NCBI RefSeq assembly: GCF_040250305.1
Contig: NZ_CP158190.1
Coordinates: 5,302,001 to 5,366,000 of the forward strand
DNA length: 64,000 nt
Direction: 5' to 3'
Source of the DNA: Peribacillus frigoritolerans
GTDB lineage: Bacteria > Bacillota > Bacilli > Bacillales > DSM-1321
Program-made: the position numbers and the translations under genes
Shown: positions 34,662 to 41,042 of the stretch, one piece after another
How positions within the stretch are numbered: the first letter of the stretch is position 1
How the letters are laid out: each line of letters starts with the position of its first letter
Notes under the pieces: model-generated
Database searches by the model: none
Told to the model about the DNA's origin: nothing
Seen by the model: only the letters and a program-made list of their open reading frames with translations

Positions 34662-36668
34662 TTACTTCAAATACTTCTTCAACACCGGTTTCATTTGATC
34701 GACAACGACATGGCTGCCGCCTCGGCCTTTTACATCTTCAATCATCCATGCCATAAGAAGTTCCGGGTCTTCTGTGTCCATGGCAACGAACCAGCCATTT
34801 TCTGTTCCGTCCGCATTTTTGGATGCCTTGATTTCAGCAGTTCCCGTTTTGGCAGCGATTTTGATGCCAAGATCATCTATTCCATGTCCACTTCCCTTAG
34901 GATGTTCCACTACTTGTGTCAGCATCTTGGTGACCTGATTTGCTTGGTCTGCTGATATCGCATTTTCTTTCCATATTTTCTTTTCTATTTTATCTCCTGT
35001 TATTAACGAAGGTGCCAGGATGTTTCCTTCATTCAAGAAGGCTGAATAGGTCATGGCGAGATGAAGCGTACTCATTTGGACTTGCGCTTGACCATATCCG
35101 GCGTCCGCCAAACGTCCCTCACTGTCGACCTTACCGATGCTCGATGCTTTGATCGGATAATCGTAATTCAAAGACTCATCAAATCCGAATGCCTTGAGTC
35201 CATTTGTGAATTTTTCCTTACCAAGACCCAGAGCTTTTTGGGCAAAGTAAATATTGTCTGAATAAATTAATGCCTTTTCCATATCGATTGGAACACCTGG
35301 GTCCGAAACCCTTGTAATGGAATGATCTTTCCATGTCGATTTGGCCCATGTTTTCCCTTGAATATTTATCGACTCTTTCGGATCCACACCATTTTTCAAA
35401 GCGATTGCCGCAGTGATGGCCTTAATGGTTGAACCAGGTGCAAACGTCGAACTGAAGCGGTTCAGAAGTGGTTTTTTCGGGTCTTCTTCAAGCGCTTTTT
35501 GTTCCGCTTTCGTTATTCCAAAAATATATTTATTAGGATCAAATGACGGACTTGAAACAAGTGCAAGCGTTTCGCCTGTCATCGGATCAATTGCCGATGA
35601 CGATCCGGCTTCATTCTTATATTGCTCGAAGATATCCTTTTGAAGCTCGGCGTCGATGGTCAATGTAATTGTTTCTCCCTCTTCAGCAGGCTTTTCAGCA
35701 ATCACTTTTTCTTCGCCATCTTCGGTTTTAATAAAGATTTTACCGCCAGGTTTGCCTTTAAGCCGCTCTTCCAACACTTCCTCAAGACCGCGCTTGCCAA
35801 TAACATCACTTGCGGTATATCCTTTTCCTTTCAATTTCTCCAAATCCTCGGCCGATGCCTCACCGACATATCCAATTAGATGGGCAGTAGCCTCTTTATA
35901 TGGATATATGCGTTCTTCTGTATTATTGACAGATACACCAGCAATGCTTAATAGCTTTTCCAAGGTTGCAGTATTATCATTTGACATTTTCTTGATGGGC
36001 ACGAAATAGCTTGGCTTTACCCATGATTGTTTTAATTTCTGATTCACTTCGTCGGTGGACATATTGAGGATTCCAGCGACCTTTTTAACCGTTTCGGATT
36101 CATTGGCCATTTTCTCTGGCACGATTCCCACTTCTGCAACCGTTCCATTCATGGCAAGGCCGCGTTCATTTCTATCGACAATTTCCCCGCGAATGGCTGG
36201 ATACGATTCAACCGATACCTTCTCGCCAGCTTTCAATTCAGGGAATATGTAGCTTTCATTCCACTTGATGTACCAATTTTCTTCCTCGCCTTCCCCTTCC
36301 TTGACAAGTGTCGCTTTATGATCAGAGCTGACAGCACCCGCCATAGTGGACATATCAACGGTATATGAAAGGCTTACCTTTTCTCCGTCTTTATGGTCTT
36401 TCTCTTCTTTTGGCTGTTTATAGTCCACCTTTAATTGGTCGGCTTCTATGCCCGTATAGATTTTTTCATAACGCTTCGCAAATTCATCCGCACTGATTTT
36501 CTTCTTTGTCTCAGGCGACAGATACTCGTACATCTTTGCAAAATCCTGTTTATTCCAAAGCTTCGTGTATGCCTCAAAGCGATCTTCCGGACTTGGCTCA
36601 TCCGAGCATCCGGCCAGAAACAATACGCTCAACAACAATAAGCTGGAAACTAAAGCTAGTTTCTTCAT
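34662..36668 (-). CDS. pbpC: Penicillin-binding protein 3-type transpeptidase (PbpC, MecA N-terminal domain)
   Basis: A 668-residue class B PBP lipoprotein that cross-links peptidoglycan. The signal peptide ends in lipobox LAGC (Cys at about 21). A MecA-type NTF2-like domain (about 28-140) and PBP dimerisation domain (about 150-320) follow. The transpeptidase domain has SxxK STIK with nucleophile Ser413, SxN as SDN, and KTG as KTGTAEI. The same layout in B. subtilis PbpC and staphylococcal PBP2a gives low beta-lactam affinity in the latter; resistance here is not implied. Monocistronic, strong terminator. Confidence 0.93.
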   Translation of the reverse strand: MKKLALVSSLLLLSVLFLAGCSDEPSPEDRFEAYTKLWNKQDFAKMYEYLSPETKKKISADEFAKRYEKIYTGIEADQLKVDYKQPKEEKDHKDGEKVSLSYTVDMSTMAGAVSSDHKATLVKEGEGEEENWYIKWNESYIFPELKAGEKVSVESYPAIRGEIVDRNERGLAMNGTVAEVGIVPEKMANESETVKKVAGILNMSTDEVNQKLKQSWVKPSYFVPIKKMSNDNTATLEKLLSIAGVSVNNTEERIYPYKEATAHLIGYVGEASAEDLEKLKGKGYTASDVIGKRGLEEVLEERLKGKPGGKIFIKTEDGEEKVIAEKPAEEGETITLTIDAELQKDIFEQYKNEAGSSSAIDPMTGETLALVSSPSFDPNKYIFGITKAEQKALEEDPKKPLLNRFSSTFAPGSTIKAITAAIALKNGVDPKESINIQGKTWAKSTWKDHSITRVSDPGVPIDMEKALIYSDNIYFAQKALGLGKEKFTNGLKAFGFDESLNYDYPIKASSIGKVDSEGRLADAGYGQAQVQMSTLHLAMTYSAFLNEGNILAPSLITGDKIEKKIWKENAISADQANQVTKMLTQVVEHPKGSGHGIDDLGIKIAAKTGTAEIKASKNADGTENGWFVAMDTEDPELLMAWMIEDVKGRGGSHVVVDQMKPVLKKYLK

Positions 36669-37036: not shown

Positions 37037-37063
37037 GATTCCTGTACATAATGTTCAGGAATC
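37037..37063. terminator. Hairpin at the end of the CorA-like gene
   Basis: GATTCCTGTACAT (37037-37049) pairs with ATGTTCAGGAATC (37051-37063) with one mismatch, touching the stop codon. There is no T run, so termination is uncertain. It shares its core with the long palindrome at 36777-36833. Confidence 0.5.
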
Positions 37064-38499
37064 TAAAGCATTCTTTTTTTTCGGCTTTTTTTCTCTTGGA
37101 GCCATTTTTTCAAGAAGAAAAAGCCCAGGATGCTAGAAATGACTAGGCCGCTTGTAGTCACAATGACAGCTACCCATTCGTATAAGCTGTAATTCATATA
37201 AGCTTTCCACGGTAATTTCCCTTTCCAATCTTCAATATATAGATTCATTCCGAATATCCCGGAGACAACCGTATAAATCGTTAGTATTTGCAAAAGATAA
37301 TTACTGCTTTTCCCAGACAGTTTATCCTGATTTTGATAAAGGTAGGAAAGTGTTTCCTTCACTTCTTTGTATAGAGGGGCAATCCTGAAGGTTTCATCCG
37401 TTTTTTTGAAGAGCTCTTTACCGATTGCCGTACTATTGACTTCAGTGAATAAATACTTTGCAGAAAACTCAGTGATCATGAAAATCAGCTGTTCTGTATC
37501 CGATTGATCTTTTTCCACATCTATCTGGGAATGTTCATGTGCCAATTTGAGCAGTACGATTTTATAATAGAAGAAAATCAACACTGTATAAAAATGCTGA
37601 CCATACATTTCACTAGCCAGTTCCCGTTCAAGTTTACCTGTCGCTTTCGTGACACACGCGAAATGATACATGCTAGTTACATAATAGGTTTCCTTGCCCC
37701 ACCTGTCATATACTCTTTCTTGATAATACTTTTCGATATAATCAGGATTTAATGCGCCTATATATGGCTCACCATCATTGTCATACCCGTTCAGTTCACT
37801 GATCCGGAATAAGTCATTTTTAGAAATATCACGATCCTTAGGGAATGCCGTATAACTGATCACGTACATTCTTTCATCGATGAAGAAGGGCAAACTGCCA
37901 AAATAGGTCGGGTCCGCTTGTTCTTCATCTATATATTCCTCAATTGGCGGCAATAGTTCATTGAAGATGAAATCCTTCACTTGTTCATACTGATTTTCCC
38001 GACAGCCGACTTTCGTTTTTTCCTCATCATCAGCAATCGGTTCAAGGATTCGGAATGTATCGCCAAAATAGAGTACATCATCATTTGAAAGCCCTTCAGG
38101 TAAAGTAATACGAAGATTCATCATGCCAATATGAAATGGGCATATGAAGATATCGATAGAGTCAATAATAAATGGGGTATTTAGATAGGGTGATTCGAAG
38201 GTACAATCAATATCCAGTTTTTTCGTGAAACGCCGCAAGCCTTCCTTCTGTTTGGCATTACTCGGAAATAAAATCGGCTCGATGTAAGGCATGAAATACT
38301 TTTCAAGTTTACGGTGCGAAACTTTGTGGCCACCGTAAAATTGATTTTGTTGTTCCATATCTTTCAAGTTCAAAAAAACGAAATTGTCCTCAAACAACTT
38401 TTCCACAAACTTTTCAATCTTATTTCCTTCAAGCGTAAATGGAAAAATGTACTGCTGGAAAGTTCGCTTCGTGGGATCATTCTTTACTTTCACATCCAT
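37063..38499 (-). CDS. CorA-like membrane protein with large unknown N-terminal domain
   Basis: A 478-residue protein ending in two transmembrane helices (about 395-415 and 435-460). Just after the first comes FGMNLYIED, which reproduces the GMN signature of CorA Mg2+/Co2+ channels, preceded by TIYTVVSGI as in CorA. The soluble region (1-385) does not read like a standard CorA cytoplasmic domain and is longer; I do not recognise it. It is probably a divergent CorA-superfamily ion channel; substrate unknown. GGAGG lies 11 bases before ATG. A structured RNA with its own terminator lies directly upstream (38633-38740). Confidence 0.65.
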   Translation of the reverse strand: MDVKVKNDPTKRTFQQYIFPFTLEGNKIEKFVEKLFEDNFVFLNLKDMEQQNQFYGGHKVSHRKLEKYFMPYIEPILFPSNAKQKEGLRRFTKKLDIDCTFESPYLNTPFIIDSIDIFICPFHIGMMNLRITLPEGLSNDDVLYFGDTFRILEPIADDEEKTKVGCRENQYEQVKDFIFNELLPPIEEYIDEEQADPTYFGSLPFFIDERMYVISYTAFPKDRDISKNDLFRISELNGYDNDGEPYIGALNPDYIEKYYQERVYDRWGKETYYVTSMYHFACVTKATGKLERELASEMYGQHFYTVLIFFYYKIVLLKLAHEHSQIDVEKDQSDTEQLIFMITEFSAKYLFTEVNSTAIGKELFKKTDETFRIAPLYKEVKETLSYLYQNQDKLSGKSSNYLLQILTIYTVVSGIFGMNLYIEDWKGKLPWKAYMNYSLYEWVAVIVTTSGLVISSILGFFFLKKWLQEKKSRKKRML

Positions 38500-38740: not shown

Positions 38741-38956
38741 TTTTAACATTTATTTTAAGTATGATAAAATACGGAATTTCTCCATATTTGGGCTTTTCCT
38801 CTTACTATCATCTAATAAATCCTTATATGCAGGGATTCACAGAAGAAAATATAACTAAAGGAATAATTGCAAGATCTTTTGTTCATCCCTTTATCATTAA
38901 ATTACGTTTTAACTAAGAAAAAGTGGGTAAATAAAAAAAAGCAAAGGAGAGACATC

Positions 38957-39100
38957 ATGAAATCCGATAGCATTAAACAACACTTTAAATTTTTTGAAAG
39001 AACAAATAACGCTAAACCAAGTGAGCGGAAACAAATGAGCGATTTCATCAAAAAGAAAATGAATGCTCAAAACAGTCATTTAAATGGCAAAAACTCATGA
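38957..39100 (+). CDS. Small basic protein of unknown function (47 aa)
   Basis: A 47-codon gene with AAAGGAGAG six bases before ATG. The product is hydrophilic and highly charged (many Lys, Asn, Gln; no Cys, no membrane segment). I do not recognise it. Its stop codon lies inside the left arm of a strong terminator, so it is a monocistronic unit with almost no 3' untranslated region. The upstream in-frame start at 38867 lacks an SD. Confidence 0.65.
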   Translation: MKSDSIKQHFKFFERTNNAKPSERKQMSDFIKKKMNAQNSHLNGKNS

Positions 39101-39128: not shown

Positions 39129-39446
39129 TTAAAATGCGATTTCATTACCTTGAAGGTTGTGCTTCACACATTTCTTGATACCGATTACATTCAAAAAATG
39201 TTGAATCTTCTTCATCGAGGTCGCCTGATATTCATCCACAATGGTAAACTCTTTAAGATAAGCGATTTTTTCTTGTACATCTGTATCTATATGATCTTGG
39301 CTGGATTCTTTATCATCTGATTTTTTGCATGTGTACACCACAGCTTCACCAATTTTCCTGGTTGCCTTATCAAAATAAAAAGAAAACACAATGGCACATT
39401 CATCATCGTAAAAAGAGGGTTGAACTTTCATATTAATATCAATCAT
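39129..39446 (-). CDS. Hypothetical protein (105 aa)
   Basis: A 105-residue protein with no signal peptide or membrane helix, rich in acidic and lysine residues, with two or three cysteines (TCKKS, KKCVKHN). I do not recognise it. GAGAGGTG lies upstream of ATG at 39446, supporting a real gene. A clear inverted repeat (TTTTGTTATA/TATAACAAAA) at about 39469-39490 lies just upstream and could be its operator or promoter region. Confidence 0.6.
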   Translation of the reverse strand: MIDINMKVQPSFYDDECAIVFSFYFDKATRKIGEAVVYTCKKSDDKESSQDHIDTDVQEKIAYLKEFTIVDEYQATSMKKIQHFLNVIGIKKCVKHNLQGNEIAF

Positions 39447-39625
39447 TAACCTTACACCTCTCTCCGTTTTGTTATATACACTATAACAAAATCATTAAAA
39501 GGAAATAGGCGTTACAAACTACGCTCACGTTTCTTCAACACCTACCAAATGGACCTTACACTCCCCATTCATAGATAATTATAACTACAGGAATATGCGC
39601 AAAAGAATAATCATTTAATAATAAT

Positions 39626-39655
39626 AAAAAAAAAACATCTTCAATTGAAGATGCT
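39626..39655 (-). terminator. Terminator of the signal-peptide gene
   Basis: CATCTTCAA-TTGAAGATG (39636-39653) is a perfect palindrome followed by about ten T on the minus strand, 30 bp past the 37-codon gene. Confidence 0.92.
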
Positions 39656-39683
39656 TGAATGATTGATAGGAAGCTTCATTTAC

Positions 39684-39797
39684 TTATTTATATAAACCTG
39701 GAAGTTCTGCGTAAAGGCCTGGTAATTCGCTTGGGACAATAACAAAAGCAGCGATGATAAGAAAAGATACGACTAATGCTTTAGTACTTTTTTTCAT
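39684..39797 (-). CDS. Small exported pro-peptide with duplicated heptapeptide (PapR-like quorum-sensing signal)
   Basis: This 37-codon gene encodes a basic start (MKKSTK), a hydrophobic helix (ALVVSFLIIAAFVIVP) and then SELPGLY-AELPGLY-K. The tail is two almost identical heptapeptides. The layout is that of PapR/NprX/Phr precursors: exported, trimmed outside, re-imported by an oligopeptide permease, and bound by a cytoplasmic RNPP receptor. SELPGLY resembles the PapR heptapeptide form (S/A)DLPFEF at the acidic-Leu-Pro positions (recalled). AAGGAGGAATGACCT precedes ATG and a terminator follows, so it is an independent gene. It is divergent from the PlcR-like regulator, 196 bp away. Confidence 0.82.
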   Translation of the reverse strand: MKKSTKALVVSFLIIAAFVIVPSELPGLYAELPGLYK

Positions 39798-39829
39798 AGG
39801 TCATTCCTCCTTTTCTTTTAAAAAAATAT

Positions 39830-39869
39830 TGGTTAAAATAGAAAATAATTCTATAGTTATATTTAACCA
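39830..39869. promoter_or_regulatory. Inverted repeat between pro-peptide gene and PlcR-like regulator (candidate operator)
   Basis: TGGTTAAA (39830-39837) and TTTAACCA (39862-39869) are exact inverted repeats with a 24-bp spacer that contains a second dyad ATAA...TTAT (39845-39860). It sits 33 bp upstream of the peptide start and would cover its promoter. I see no match to the B. cereus PlcR box (TATGNAAN4TNCATA), so a different site specificity is implied. Confidence 0.45.
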
Positions 39870-39993
39870 CAATTCTTAAAATCATATATTTCGACTAAAG
39901 AATCTTTTTAAACCGTTCAGGACCTGTACATACCGCTTTCACCGATTTTTCATAACAAAATATAACTCTAGGCATATTTTAAGGAGAATCAAA

Positions 39994-40887
39994 ATGGATT
40001 TTTTTGCAGTTGGACAAAAGATCAAAGAGCTACGTAAACAAATCGGGCTTTCCCAGGAAGAGTTGGCAACCGGTATTTGTACACAAGCACAGATCAGTAA
40101 GATTGAAAAGGGCGATGTCTATCCATATGCATCCACTCTCTACTTAATTTCCCAACGTTTAGGCGTTGATGTAAACTATTTTTTTGATATTGGAATGACC
40201 CCTAGGCTGGATTACGTGGAAGAAGTGATTTATCAATTAAAAATAGCCAGAAGAACCCGAAATTATGAGGAAATGCAGCAAATTGTAAAGGCTGAGGAAA
40301 ACAGTCCCCTCTTTCTTCAAAATAAAAAGAATCATCAATTGATTCTTTGGCACAAGGGAATATACGAATATGAAAAAAATAAAGATTTAGATAAAGCCAT
40401 AGAATTCATCAATAAGGCCATCTCCATTACTCATACGACTGATAAAATTTATTCGGAACGGGAGCTTGAAATCTTAAGCAGTCTTGGTGTAATGTATGTT
40501 GCCGAAGAACAATACGAAAATGCATTTGCCTTGTTAAGGAAAGCTTTAGATCACTTGAAAGCCCTGCCTTTCTTGACGGATAAAACGCTAAAGACGCGCC
40601 TATCCTATAATTTTGGCAGAGTGCTAACACGCCTTGGCCGATACGAAGAGTCCATTGCCTGCTGCCAAGATGCCATAAAGTGGTGCCTCGAACATGATCA
40701 ATTATATGCTTTAGCGGATTTACATTACCATTTAGGATACAATTTTGAACTCGTAGGTAACTTTGAAGAGGCAAAAGAGTACTTGGAAAAATCTGCGTTT
40801 CTATTCAAATTACAAAAAAACCATACCTTTGTTACATTCATCAACAAAAAGCTGGACAGTTGGAAGAACGAAATGAAAATAAACTAA
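39994..40887 (+). CDS. PlcR/NprR-type RNPP transcription regulator (XRE HTH plus TPR repeats)
   Basis: A 297-residue cytoplasmic regulator. Residues about 7-62 are an XRE helix-turn-helix (IKELRKQIGLSQEELA ... CTQAQISKIEKGDVYP). Residues about 75-290 are tandem TPR helices, for example YEKNKDLDKAIEFINKAISI, LGVMYVAEEQYENAFALLRKALDHL, LGRYEESIACCQDAIKWCL, and LGYNFELVGNFEEAKEYLEKSAFLF. This is the domain order and length of PlcR (about 285 residues); TPRs in that family bind a small imported peptide that switches DNA binding. The divergent neighbour encodes a matching pro-peptide. AAGGAGAATCAAA precedes ATG. Targets are unknown. Confidence 0.88.
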   Translation: MDFFAVGQKIKELRKQIGLSQEELATGICTQAQISKIEKGDVYPYASTLYLISQRLGVDVNYFFDIGMTPRLDYVEEVIYQLKIARRTRNYEEMQQIVKAEENSPLFLQNKKNHQLILWHKGIYEYEKNKDLDKAIEFINKAISITHTTDKIYSERELEILSSLGVMYVAEEQYENAFALLRKALDHLKALPFLTDKTLKTRLSYNFGRVLTRLGRYEESIACCQDAIKWCLEHDQLYALADLHYHLGYNFELVGNFEEAKEYLEKSAFLFKLQKNHTFVTFINKKLDSWKNEMKIN

Positions 40888-40889
40888 TT

Positions 40890-40933
40890 CTATAATTTGG
40901 AGCCATTTCCCCGGGAATGGCTCCAAATTATAG
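40890..40933. terminator. Long hairpin after the PlcR-like gene
   Basis: CTATAATTTGGAGCCATT (40890-40907) and AATGGCTCCAAATTATAG (40916-40933) are perfect 18-bp arms around an eight-base loop, three bases past the stop codon. No T run follows, so it may be a processing or stability element as well as a terminator. Copy B of the repeat begins directly after it. Confidence 0.75.
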
Positions 40934-41042
40934 ACAAACTCGATGCCTCCAGGCACTCGCTTTCCGCGGGCGGTCCGTTCTCGGATCCTATGCGCCTGCG
41001 GGTCTCCACTTGACGCTCTTTCCCCGCAGGAGTCTCGCACAT
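40930..41042 (+). repeat. Intergenic repeat family, copy B
   Basis: It carries TAGACAAACTCGATG, then GCACTCGCTTTCCGC, GGGCGGTCCGTTCTCGG, CGCCTGCGGGTCTCC, and CGCTCTTTCCCCGCAGGAGTCTCGCAC-like ends. Three of these occur in the same order in copy A (36885-37032) on the opposite strand. It is much more GC-rich than its surroundings. No gene is present. Confidence 0.75.

Follow-up and report, generated by a model that had tools for sequence, protein, structure and literature searches.

The presence of a 37-codon open reading frame transcribed away from the gene of a PlcR-like regulator in Peribacillus frigoritolerans raises the question of whether the small gene encodes a signal that its neighbor senses, and why the putative signal is written twice in one precursor. 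Both genes lie in a window of 64,000 nucleotides, which is the whole stretch of DNA that was analysed. The comparisons presented here indicate that the locus is highly likely to represent an autoregulated chromosomal quorum-sensing module of the RRNPP type, PlcR-like in character, with ELPGLY as its signal and box-type sequences as its operators.

The precursor gene (39684..39797, minus strand) was defined by ORF translation and by alignment of its orthologues. The minus-strand product of ORF 39684-39797, MKKSTKALVVSFLIIAAFVIVPSELPGLYAELPGLYK, is encoded by 37 codons and consists of a basic N-terminus, a hydrophobic stretch and the tail SELPGLY-AELPGLY-K; the first two of these features were recognized by eye and by a hydropathy filter. 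By the coordinates of the ORF, the two 18-nt ELPGLY copies are located at 39711..39728 (minus strand, residues 24-29) and 39690..39707 (minus strand, residues 31-36), the latter being followed by K and the stop codon. A GGAGG Shine-Dalgarno sequence (39806..39810, minus strand), read directly and kept in an alignment of 24 loci, is spaced 8 nt from the ATG. An intrinsic terminator (39633..39656, minus strand) exhibits 10 pairs, a loop of 4 and a T-run, and the 86-nt terminator stretch folds only moderately better than its shuffles (z -1.74). The original prediction of a 37-codon gene with a strong Shine-Dalgarno sequence and its own terminator is hence borne out, the strand, which it had not given, being the minus strand.

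The distance between the ORF and the receptor gene is 195-197 nt (196 nt in the window), and the precursor is intact in 17 of 18 receptor orthologues of at least 93% identity; at the 18th locus (L003, from a genome that is 87% complete) the start is frameshifted and the repeats are intact. Over the 18 orthologous ORFs, 13 codons are variable, nine of them only synonymously, three with a change of amino acid and one representing the start of L003. The three amino-acid changes (positions 14, 18 and 23) affect the leader or the residue preceding the first copy and thus spare the repeats, and the three codons that vary inside the two ELPGLY copies do so only synonymously. When the two copies of the window are compared with each other, all six amino acids are equal and four of the six codons differ; a DNA repeat finder listed no direct repeat between positions 39600 and 40000. 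Lack of conservation of the tandem tail in relatives had been named beforehand as an outcome that would speak against the gene, and the tail was found to be conserved. The gene, which had been thought to be unannotated, is indeed absent from the 33 database matches to the propeptide profile. A Pfam scan of 22 precursors provided a best match to any family of E 0.086, and no curated PapR model appeared among their matches at E up to 10, a range in which the HMMER filters drop most weak matches. The precursor from Falsibacillus (P0045) bears the UniRef name "PapR protein", the one such name. The gene is considered to be real and conserved, and it very probably encodes two identical copies of a secreted signal peptide, which the neighboring regulator would read.

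The receptor gene (39994..40887, plus strand) codes for a regulator of 297 aa with HTH_3 and TPR (RNPP_C) regions, as derived from Pfam and PDB matches. The RNPP_C model scores 52.5 bits against a cut-off of 26.5, and HTH_3 and several TPR models are likewise above their cut-offs. A single-sequence search of solved structures yields PlcR as the best match (4.2e-14), and a profile of 37 relatives (alignment A2) matches PlcR (2qfc_A) over its full length, positions 1-293, with an E value of 7e-39. The expectation of a divergent, PlcR-like HTH-TPR regulator of 297 residues was accordingly confirmed, and the homology, together with the conserved repeats, supports the wider proposal of a new RRNPP-type pair that is related to PlcR and PapR and encodes its signal twice. 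N201 and N159 of PlcR, which we take to be peptide-holding residues, align with N206 of the receptor (N in 34 of the 37 receptors) and with the place of S162, where N occurs in 9 of the 37 and other residues in 28. Of the further peptide-holding residues of PlcR described in the accessible part of PMC6568020, K87/K89 correspond to R87/R89 by profile alignment, the single-sequence alignment being shifted by four there, and the place of Q237 is occupied by D242, with E in most relatives. In the receptor tree, the placement of PlcR is unsure, its branch measuring 3.56 changes per column and adjoining that of L067, which is likewise long.

Receptors that are 93-100% identical were found at eleven loci from P. 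frigoritolerans, P. simplex, P. butanolivorans, Peribacillus sp. and Bacillus sp. The genome under study also codes for a second PlcR-like receptor (L061, C1:2966950-2967804), a possible orphan, in whose surroundings no recognisable precursor gene was found. Directly 3' of the receptor stop codon in the window, a near-perfect 19-bp inverted repeat (40889-40934) shows a terminator score on the minus strand only, and a GC-rich stretch on the same side of the gene (40943-41040) resembles, by eye, a repeated element.

Two stretches are outstanding in an alignment of 24 intergenic regions, and both genes are accompanied by a 16-nt near-palindrome, the best form of which is TATAACTNTAGGMATA; it has the size of the PlcR box and a different sequence. 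The operator-like box of the receptor gene, TATAACTCTAGGCATA (39961..39976, plus strand), is situated 18-33 nt 5' of the ATG, and that of the precursor gene, TATAACTATAGAATTA (39846..39861, minus strand), 49-64 nt 5' of the ATG, the two forming a 23-nt inverted repeat with 83% complementarity. A third box, TATAACTACAGGAATA (39580..39595, plus strand), is found between the precursor gene and a gene for a 105-aa protein, upstream of the latter, and a fourth, TATAACTAAAGGAATA (38850..38865, plus strand), has one mismatch in the window and is exact in L002-L018, where the same four box places recur. With up to two mismatches, TATAACTNTAGNNATA has 10 matches in the window (7 places, both strands) against 1.7 expected, and four of these seven places fall within 1.13 kb around the gene pair. 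In L019-L036, the receptor box is preserved within one mismatch in 18 of 18 loci, and some of the other boxes are kept. The precursor-side box is weaker: 24 of the 36 loci L001-L036 have it, normally placed and oriented, with no more than two mismatches. When 185 windows were ranked by conservation across 21 selected loci, the receptor box came second and the precursor-side box 30th, the left half of the latter and the bases preceding it ranking much higher than the whole box.

The exact box occurs in 29 of 31 same-genus genomes that have a receptor orthologue and in none of the four without it; in total, 78 matches in 61 genomes compare with 12 for the reversed control. A set of 26 genomes from five other families, picked for having a receptor, contains 26 exact boxes (control, 2), of which 20 precede the receptor gene, 3 are beside the partner gene, amounting to 23 at the locus, and 3 are elsewhere. 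Three genomes of other families that have no close receptor (G046, G055 and G060) each contain one exact box, in every case lacking the consensus GGM. A regulon was not drawn from one-mismatch boxes, which are not enriched in the genome under study (18 matches versus 43 for the reversed control), nor from off-locus exact boxes, among them one preceding an MFS-like gene (G035) and one preceding a 533-aa gene (G061), which have no target in common. A one-mismatch box of the genome under study (L094), 29 nt before a gene next to what is presumably spo0A, and an intragenic box (L092) were also not counted as targets.

The boxes might alternatively be conserved core promoters and not the operators of this regulator, as would suit the resemblance of their left half, TATAAC(T), to a sigma-A -10 hexamer, the short distance of the receptor box from the start codon and, on the peptide side, the superior conservation of the left half and the bases before it. 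Such an explanation is unlikely, however, in view of the preservation of both halves (TATAAC...GGMATA) on the receptor side, the recurrence of the same 16 nt beside the 105-aa gene and about 143 bp before a permease gene, and the absence of the exact box from the four same-genus genomes that lack a receptor orthologue. The boxes are treated as candidate operators, and having such a candidate named allows the regulon to be read.

The conserved partner gene for the protein of about 105 aa (39129..39446, minus strand) has a homologue in 41 of 109 receptor loci; the scan comprised 128 loci, 55 of them with matches, 14 of which repeat loci already counted. It is the next gene after the precursor in the loci read and lies beyond the receptor in L210, and its range includes the own genus and family, plus the families coded f28, f38 and f47. 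Its named database matches are all hypothetical proteins, such that the system adds a third conserved gene of this description, and a PDB profile search for the family gave E 0.23 at best. Pfam assignments to TPR_IF140_C (4 of 26 members, best 0.00018) and DUF6848 (4 of 26, 0.028) were not adopted. In family f11 (L145, L047), the precursor gene is followed by a gene of 78 aa that does not resemble the 105-aa family. A basic ORF of 47 aa (38957..39100, plus strand), located downstream of the fourth box, is a possible target, and a similar ORF is present in 7 of 10 relatives examined. The same box, at 38850, precedes by some 350 bp a gene on the minus strand (37063-38499) for a 478-aa protein with a hydrophobic C-terminus, for which neither Pfam nor NCBIfam gave a match at E 0.001. 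Further along, 34662-36668 (minus strand) codes for a class B penicillin-binding protein with best NCBIfam matches of the PBP4(5)-/PBP2a-type; since all of these are below their cut-offs, an ordinary penicillin-binding protein is likely.

Elsewhere in the genome, an exact box is located 143 bp before the gene of an OppD/DppD-like ATPase, which is followed by a second ATPase gene and permease genes. In 46 genomes, a box at -143 or -142 was detected in 15 of 22 orthologues (13 exact, 2 with one mismatch), and it is missing from five receptor-bearing species and from two that have no receptor. Conservation is high over the entire region upstream of the permease operon, where 23 of 245 windows equal the box in this respect, and the link between operon and box is thus suggestive only.

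Of 101 genomes searched, 83 contain a receptor-like match, in many cases a distant one, and a search of 397 Bacillales genomes with the receptor profile gave matches at 1e-70 in 161. From both searches, 109 loci with 112 receptor genes were picked by receptor similarity and read, as a subset of all matches. A divergent signal-peptide-like ORF at 140-230 nt was observed for 69 of the 112 genes, a box (at most two mismatches, within the last 60 nt) for 69, and both for 61. Upon dereplication at 90%, 84 receptors divide into 37 with both features, 7 and 7 with one of them and 33 with neither (Fisher p 8e-10, with relatedness uncorrected). The 112- and 84-gene counts leave out four divergent precursors seen by eye, those of L208 and L215 (box) and of L218 and L225 (no box); these four are labeled in the copy-number tree. 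In an 85-row receptor tree, 42 of the 44 box-bearing receptors fall in a single branch of 59 rows (98/97), and the nine rows with a same-strand downstream peptide gene are boxless and outside this branch. Co-variation of receptor and pheromone is weak, with a Mantel rho of 0.20 (p 0.012; partial 0.17, p 0.018) in 22 rows and of 0.20 (p 0.07; partial 0.26, p 0.02) in 14 dereplicated rows. Phage carriage of the system was also considered, and none of 25 pattern matches in viral contigs was confirmed.

The nature of the signal unit emerges from the comparison of the precursors. Only M1, K2 and the last E-L-P are invariant in 22 aligned precursors, and the hydrophobic part drifts. A tally of 67 units from 30 hand-picked precursors, in which the motif itself fixes E-L-P and Y/F/H/L and a 14-copy precursor was cut to 3 copies, shows mostly P, S, T or G at position 4, mostly V, I, L, Q or M at position 5, and Y (27), H (23), F (15) or L (2) at position 6. 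The residue preceding E takes 15 different values over these units, and the hexamers of L019-L022 abut with no spacer, both of which point to a hexapeptide, E-L-P-x-x-(Y/F/H), as the unit that is conserved in most cases. The heptad that was originally proposed fits the window species only, and the S/A alternation at its first position, formerly read as a hint to the cut site, says little for the same two reasons. Some signals deviate from the pattern in their length or in how they begin, namely IPFPPRML (L038), LPFPPWVF (L216), ELPDNPY (L035, L207), ELPTTQH (L213) and DLPGNIY (L214). Because the last copy ends in K in the window and in TKA in two relatives, C-terminal trimming would be needed.

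The number of copies per precursor is one in many loci, two in the window and several relatives, four in L019 and L225, five in L038, L204, L205 and L229, six in L220, nine in L218 and 14 in L215; P0063, a protein taken from the database without its genomic surroundings, has three. The 14 ELPTMY units of L215 are carried by a 230-aa precursor (L215:240-929, minus strand), for which the protein collection yielded no homologue at E 0.001 when 8000 candidates were scored. Two successive precursor genes occur at one receptor in L221 (481-741, minus strand), one with a single ELPSIH and a second, more distant one with a seven-unit ELPPIH/ELPSIH array. For 48 dereplicated receptors that have a divergent precursor, the copy state was labeled by hand and by eye as multiple (19) or single (29), and it changes at least nine times on their tree. 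Within 16 of 18 multi-copy precursors, all copies have the same amino acids, their DNA units being different. This count used exact unit motifs, by which decayed copies could be missed, and omitted close relatives (e.g., L022, L028, L030 and L205) and the database-only P0032, P0041 and P0063.

The original prediction had left two signals and a double dose side by side. The identical copies favor the dose, and the same between-species change appears in both copies alike in the aligned two-copy precursors. Unlike copies do exist (ELPGVY with three ELPGVH in L019, one ELPSIH among ELPPIH in L221, and ELPTEF/ELPSEF in P0032, which is outside the count), and in a phage Rap system unlike copies differ in affinity, as reported in the available part of PMC11343458; two different signals, or a substrate for code diversification as proposed for Phr propeptides, are nonetheless quite improbable here, in the face of the 16 uniform precursors and the parallel changes. 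Since the copies share their amino acids yet differ at synonymous sites, the repeats most likely raise the amount of one signal. It is extremely unlikely that the ORF encodes something else, e.g., a short membrane peptide or toxin with a structural ELP tail beside a regulator that senses another ligand: export and binding are predictions and the precursors match no Pfam family well, but the restriction of invariance to M1, K2 and the last ELP beside a drifting hydrophobic part, the arrays of up to 14 short units with variable spacers, which resemble a multi-copy secreted signal, the box common to both genes and the fixed divergent place beside a PlcR-like receptor all speak against it.

The secreted-signal reading can be extended into a mechanism. 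The genes, their conservation, the repeats, the boxes and the co-occurrence of the boxes are its observed basis, from which we infer that the peptide is exported, cleaved, imported and bound, and in which direction it regulates. The 37-aa precursor would be exported via its N-terminal signal, and extracellular proteases would free ELPGLY, two per precursor. An oligopeptide permease would re-import the peptide, which would then bind the TPR groove of the 297-aa regulator, and the peptide-bound regulator would change its binding to boxes of the TATAACTNTAGGMATA type. Its candidate targets include the regulator gene, the precursor gene, the 105-aa gene, the small basic ORF and, in this species group, the App/Opp-type permease operon. 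The module most likely senses its own peptide, by analogy with PlcR, where the regulator is autoinduced, PapR is under PlcR control and import is by Opp. As a guess from geometry, the pheromone gene may be activated and the receptor gene repressed, since the receptor gene could have its -10 element in the left half of its box and the precursor box is further upstream of its start.

On a broader scale, the box-marked PlcR-like branch in several Bacillales families could, as a tentative proposal to which we give somewhat less than an even chance, represent a self-contained module of receptor, divergent pheromone gene, 16-nt operator and, in part, the protein of about 105 aa. In this module the number of identical copies (1 to 14) would set an evolvable gain for the signal; it would have shifted many times, with the copies inside each precursor remaining uniform. 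The natural series of 1, 2, 4, 5, 6, 9 and 14 copies at the same divergent place within one pheromone system renders the question of dose versus diversification directly testable.

The system is of a known kind, and its layout, operator and range of copy numbers are, as far as the searches reach, new. No mention of ELPGLY was found in the literature searched, most subscription journals and supplements being out of reach, and a phrase search for tandem pheromone copies gave no literature match. Among the matches listed, titles and abstracts revealed no such system for quorum sensing in Peribacillus or P. frigoritolerans and no PlcR-like or PapR-like pair with divergent transcription, and ELPPIY was not found among those listed for the PlcR literature since 2023. 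Two abstracts describe Peribacillus as plant-associated. A structural tree of RRNPP families has been published (PMC12700828, available in part). The RRNPP_detector program, in the accessible description (PMC10075063), employs five criteria that include a small precursor of 10-100 aa, a receptor of 250-500 aa, TPRs, adjacency and export by SignalP. Four of these were checked and are all present in the window: a 37-aa precursor, a 297-aa receptor, TPRs and adjacency (196 nt, divergent). The pair may hence already stand, without description, in the candidate lists of that program, and long arrays may escape it, as the 230-aa precursor of L215 exceeds its limit.

In the PlcR-PapR system, papR is located downstream of plcR on the same strand, whereas the peptide gene is divergent in the window and in 69 of the 112 receptor genes. 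The two systems (PlcR 2QFC/3U3W/4FSC) have in common an HTH and TPR receptor of about 290 aa and a 16-nt box size, and their signals share an L-P core and an aromatic end, in the form D/E-L-P-x-x-aromatic, PapR7 being ADLPFEF according to the part available of PMC6568020. PlcR controls the genes of both regulator and peptide, and the peptide is imported by an oligopeptide permease (accessible parts of PMC2464732 and PMC6568020). In Bacillales systems in general, the peptide gene is described as downstream (PMC9765709, available in part). The PlcR consensus is wTATGnAwwwwTnCATAw, in which a change of G4 to A leaves 1% activity (PMC2464732, available part), and TATAACTNTAGGMATA has A at this place. 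The classical PlcR box, TATGNAN4TNCATA, has no match in the 64-kb window. Each of the 61 genomes contains classical boxes, in most cases more than the reversed control gives (21 versus 7 a strand in the genome under study), and these are uninformative genome-wide, since they are also present in genomes without a receptor orthologue (20 versus 10 in G012, 22 versus 7 in G022). The tandem copies, the third partner gene and the very long tree branch of PlcR further distinguish the two systems.

PlcRa-PapRa of B. cereus also consists of a PlcR paralogue and, as in the window, a peptide gene upstream of that of the receptor. The 93-aa PapRa precursor has one proposed signal, the internal heptapeptide CSIPYEY, and, in contrast to the box-marked genes described here, the promoters of PlcRa-regulated genes are described as having no palindromic sequence (all from the available part of PMC3519770). 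The Phr precursors of Rap3T/Phr3T and Rap105/Phr105 likewise contain several pheromones, identical or unlike, all of which were active in that study; their receptors are phage Rap proteins that act on protein targets (PMC11343458, accessible part). Repeated pheromones are in print for Rap, AimR, NprR and PlcR systems, with maxima of up to 6 (PMC9765709) and up to 8 copies (PMC11343458) in the parts available of these reports, as compared to the 14 copies in the L215 relative of the present system.
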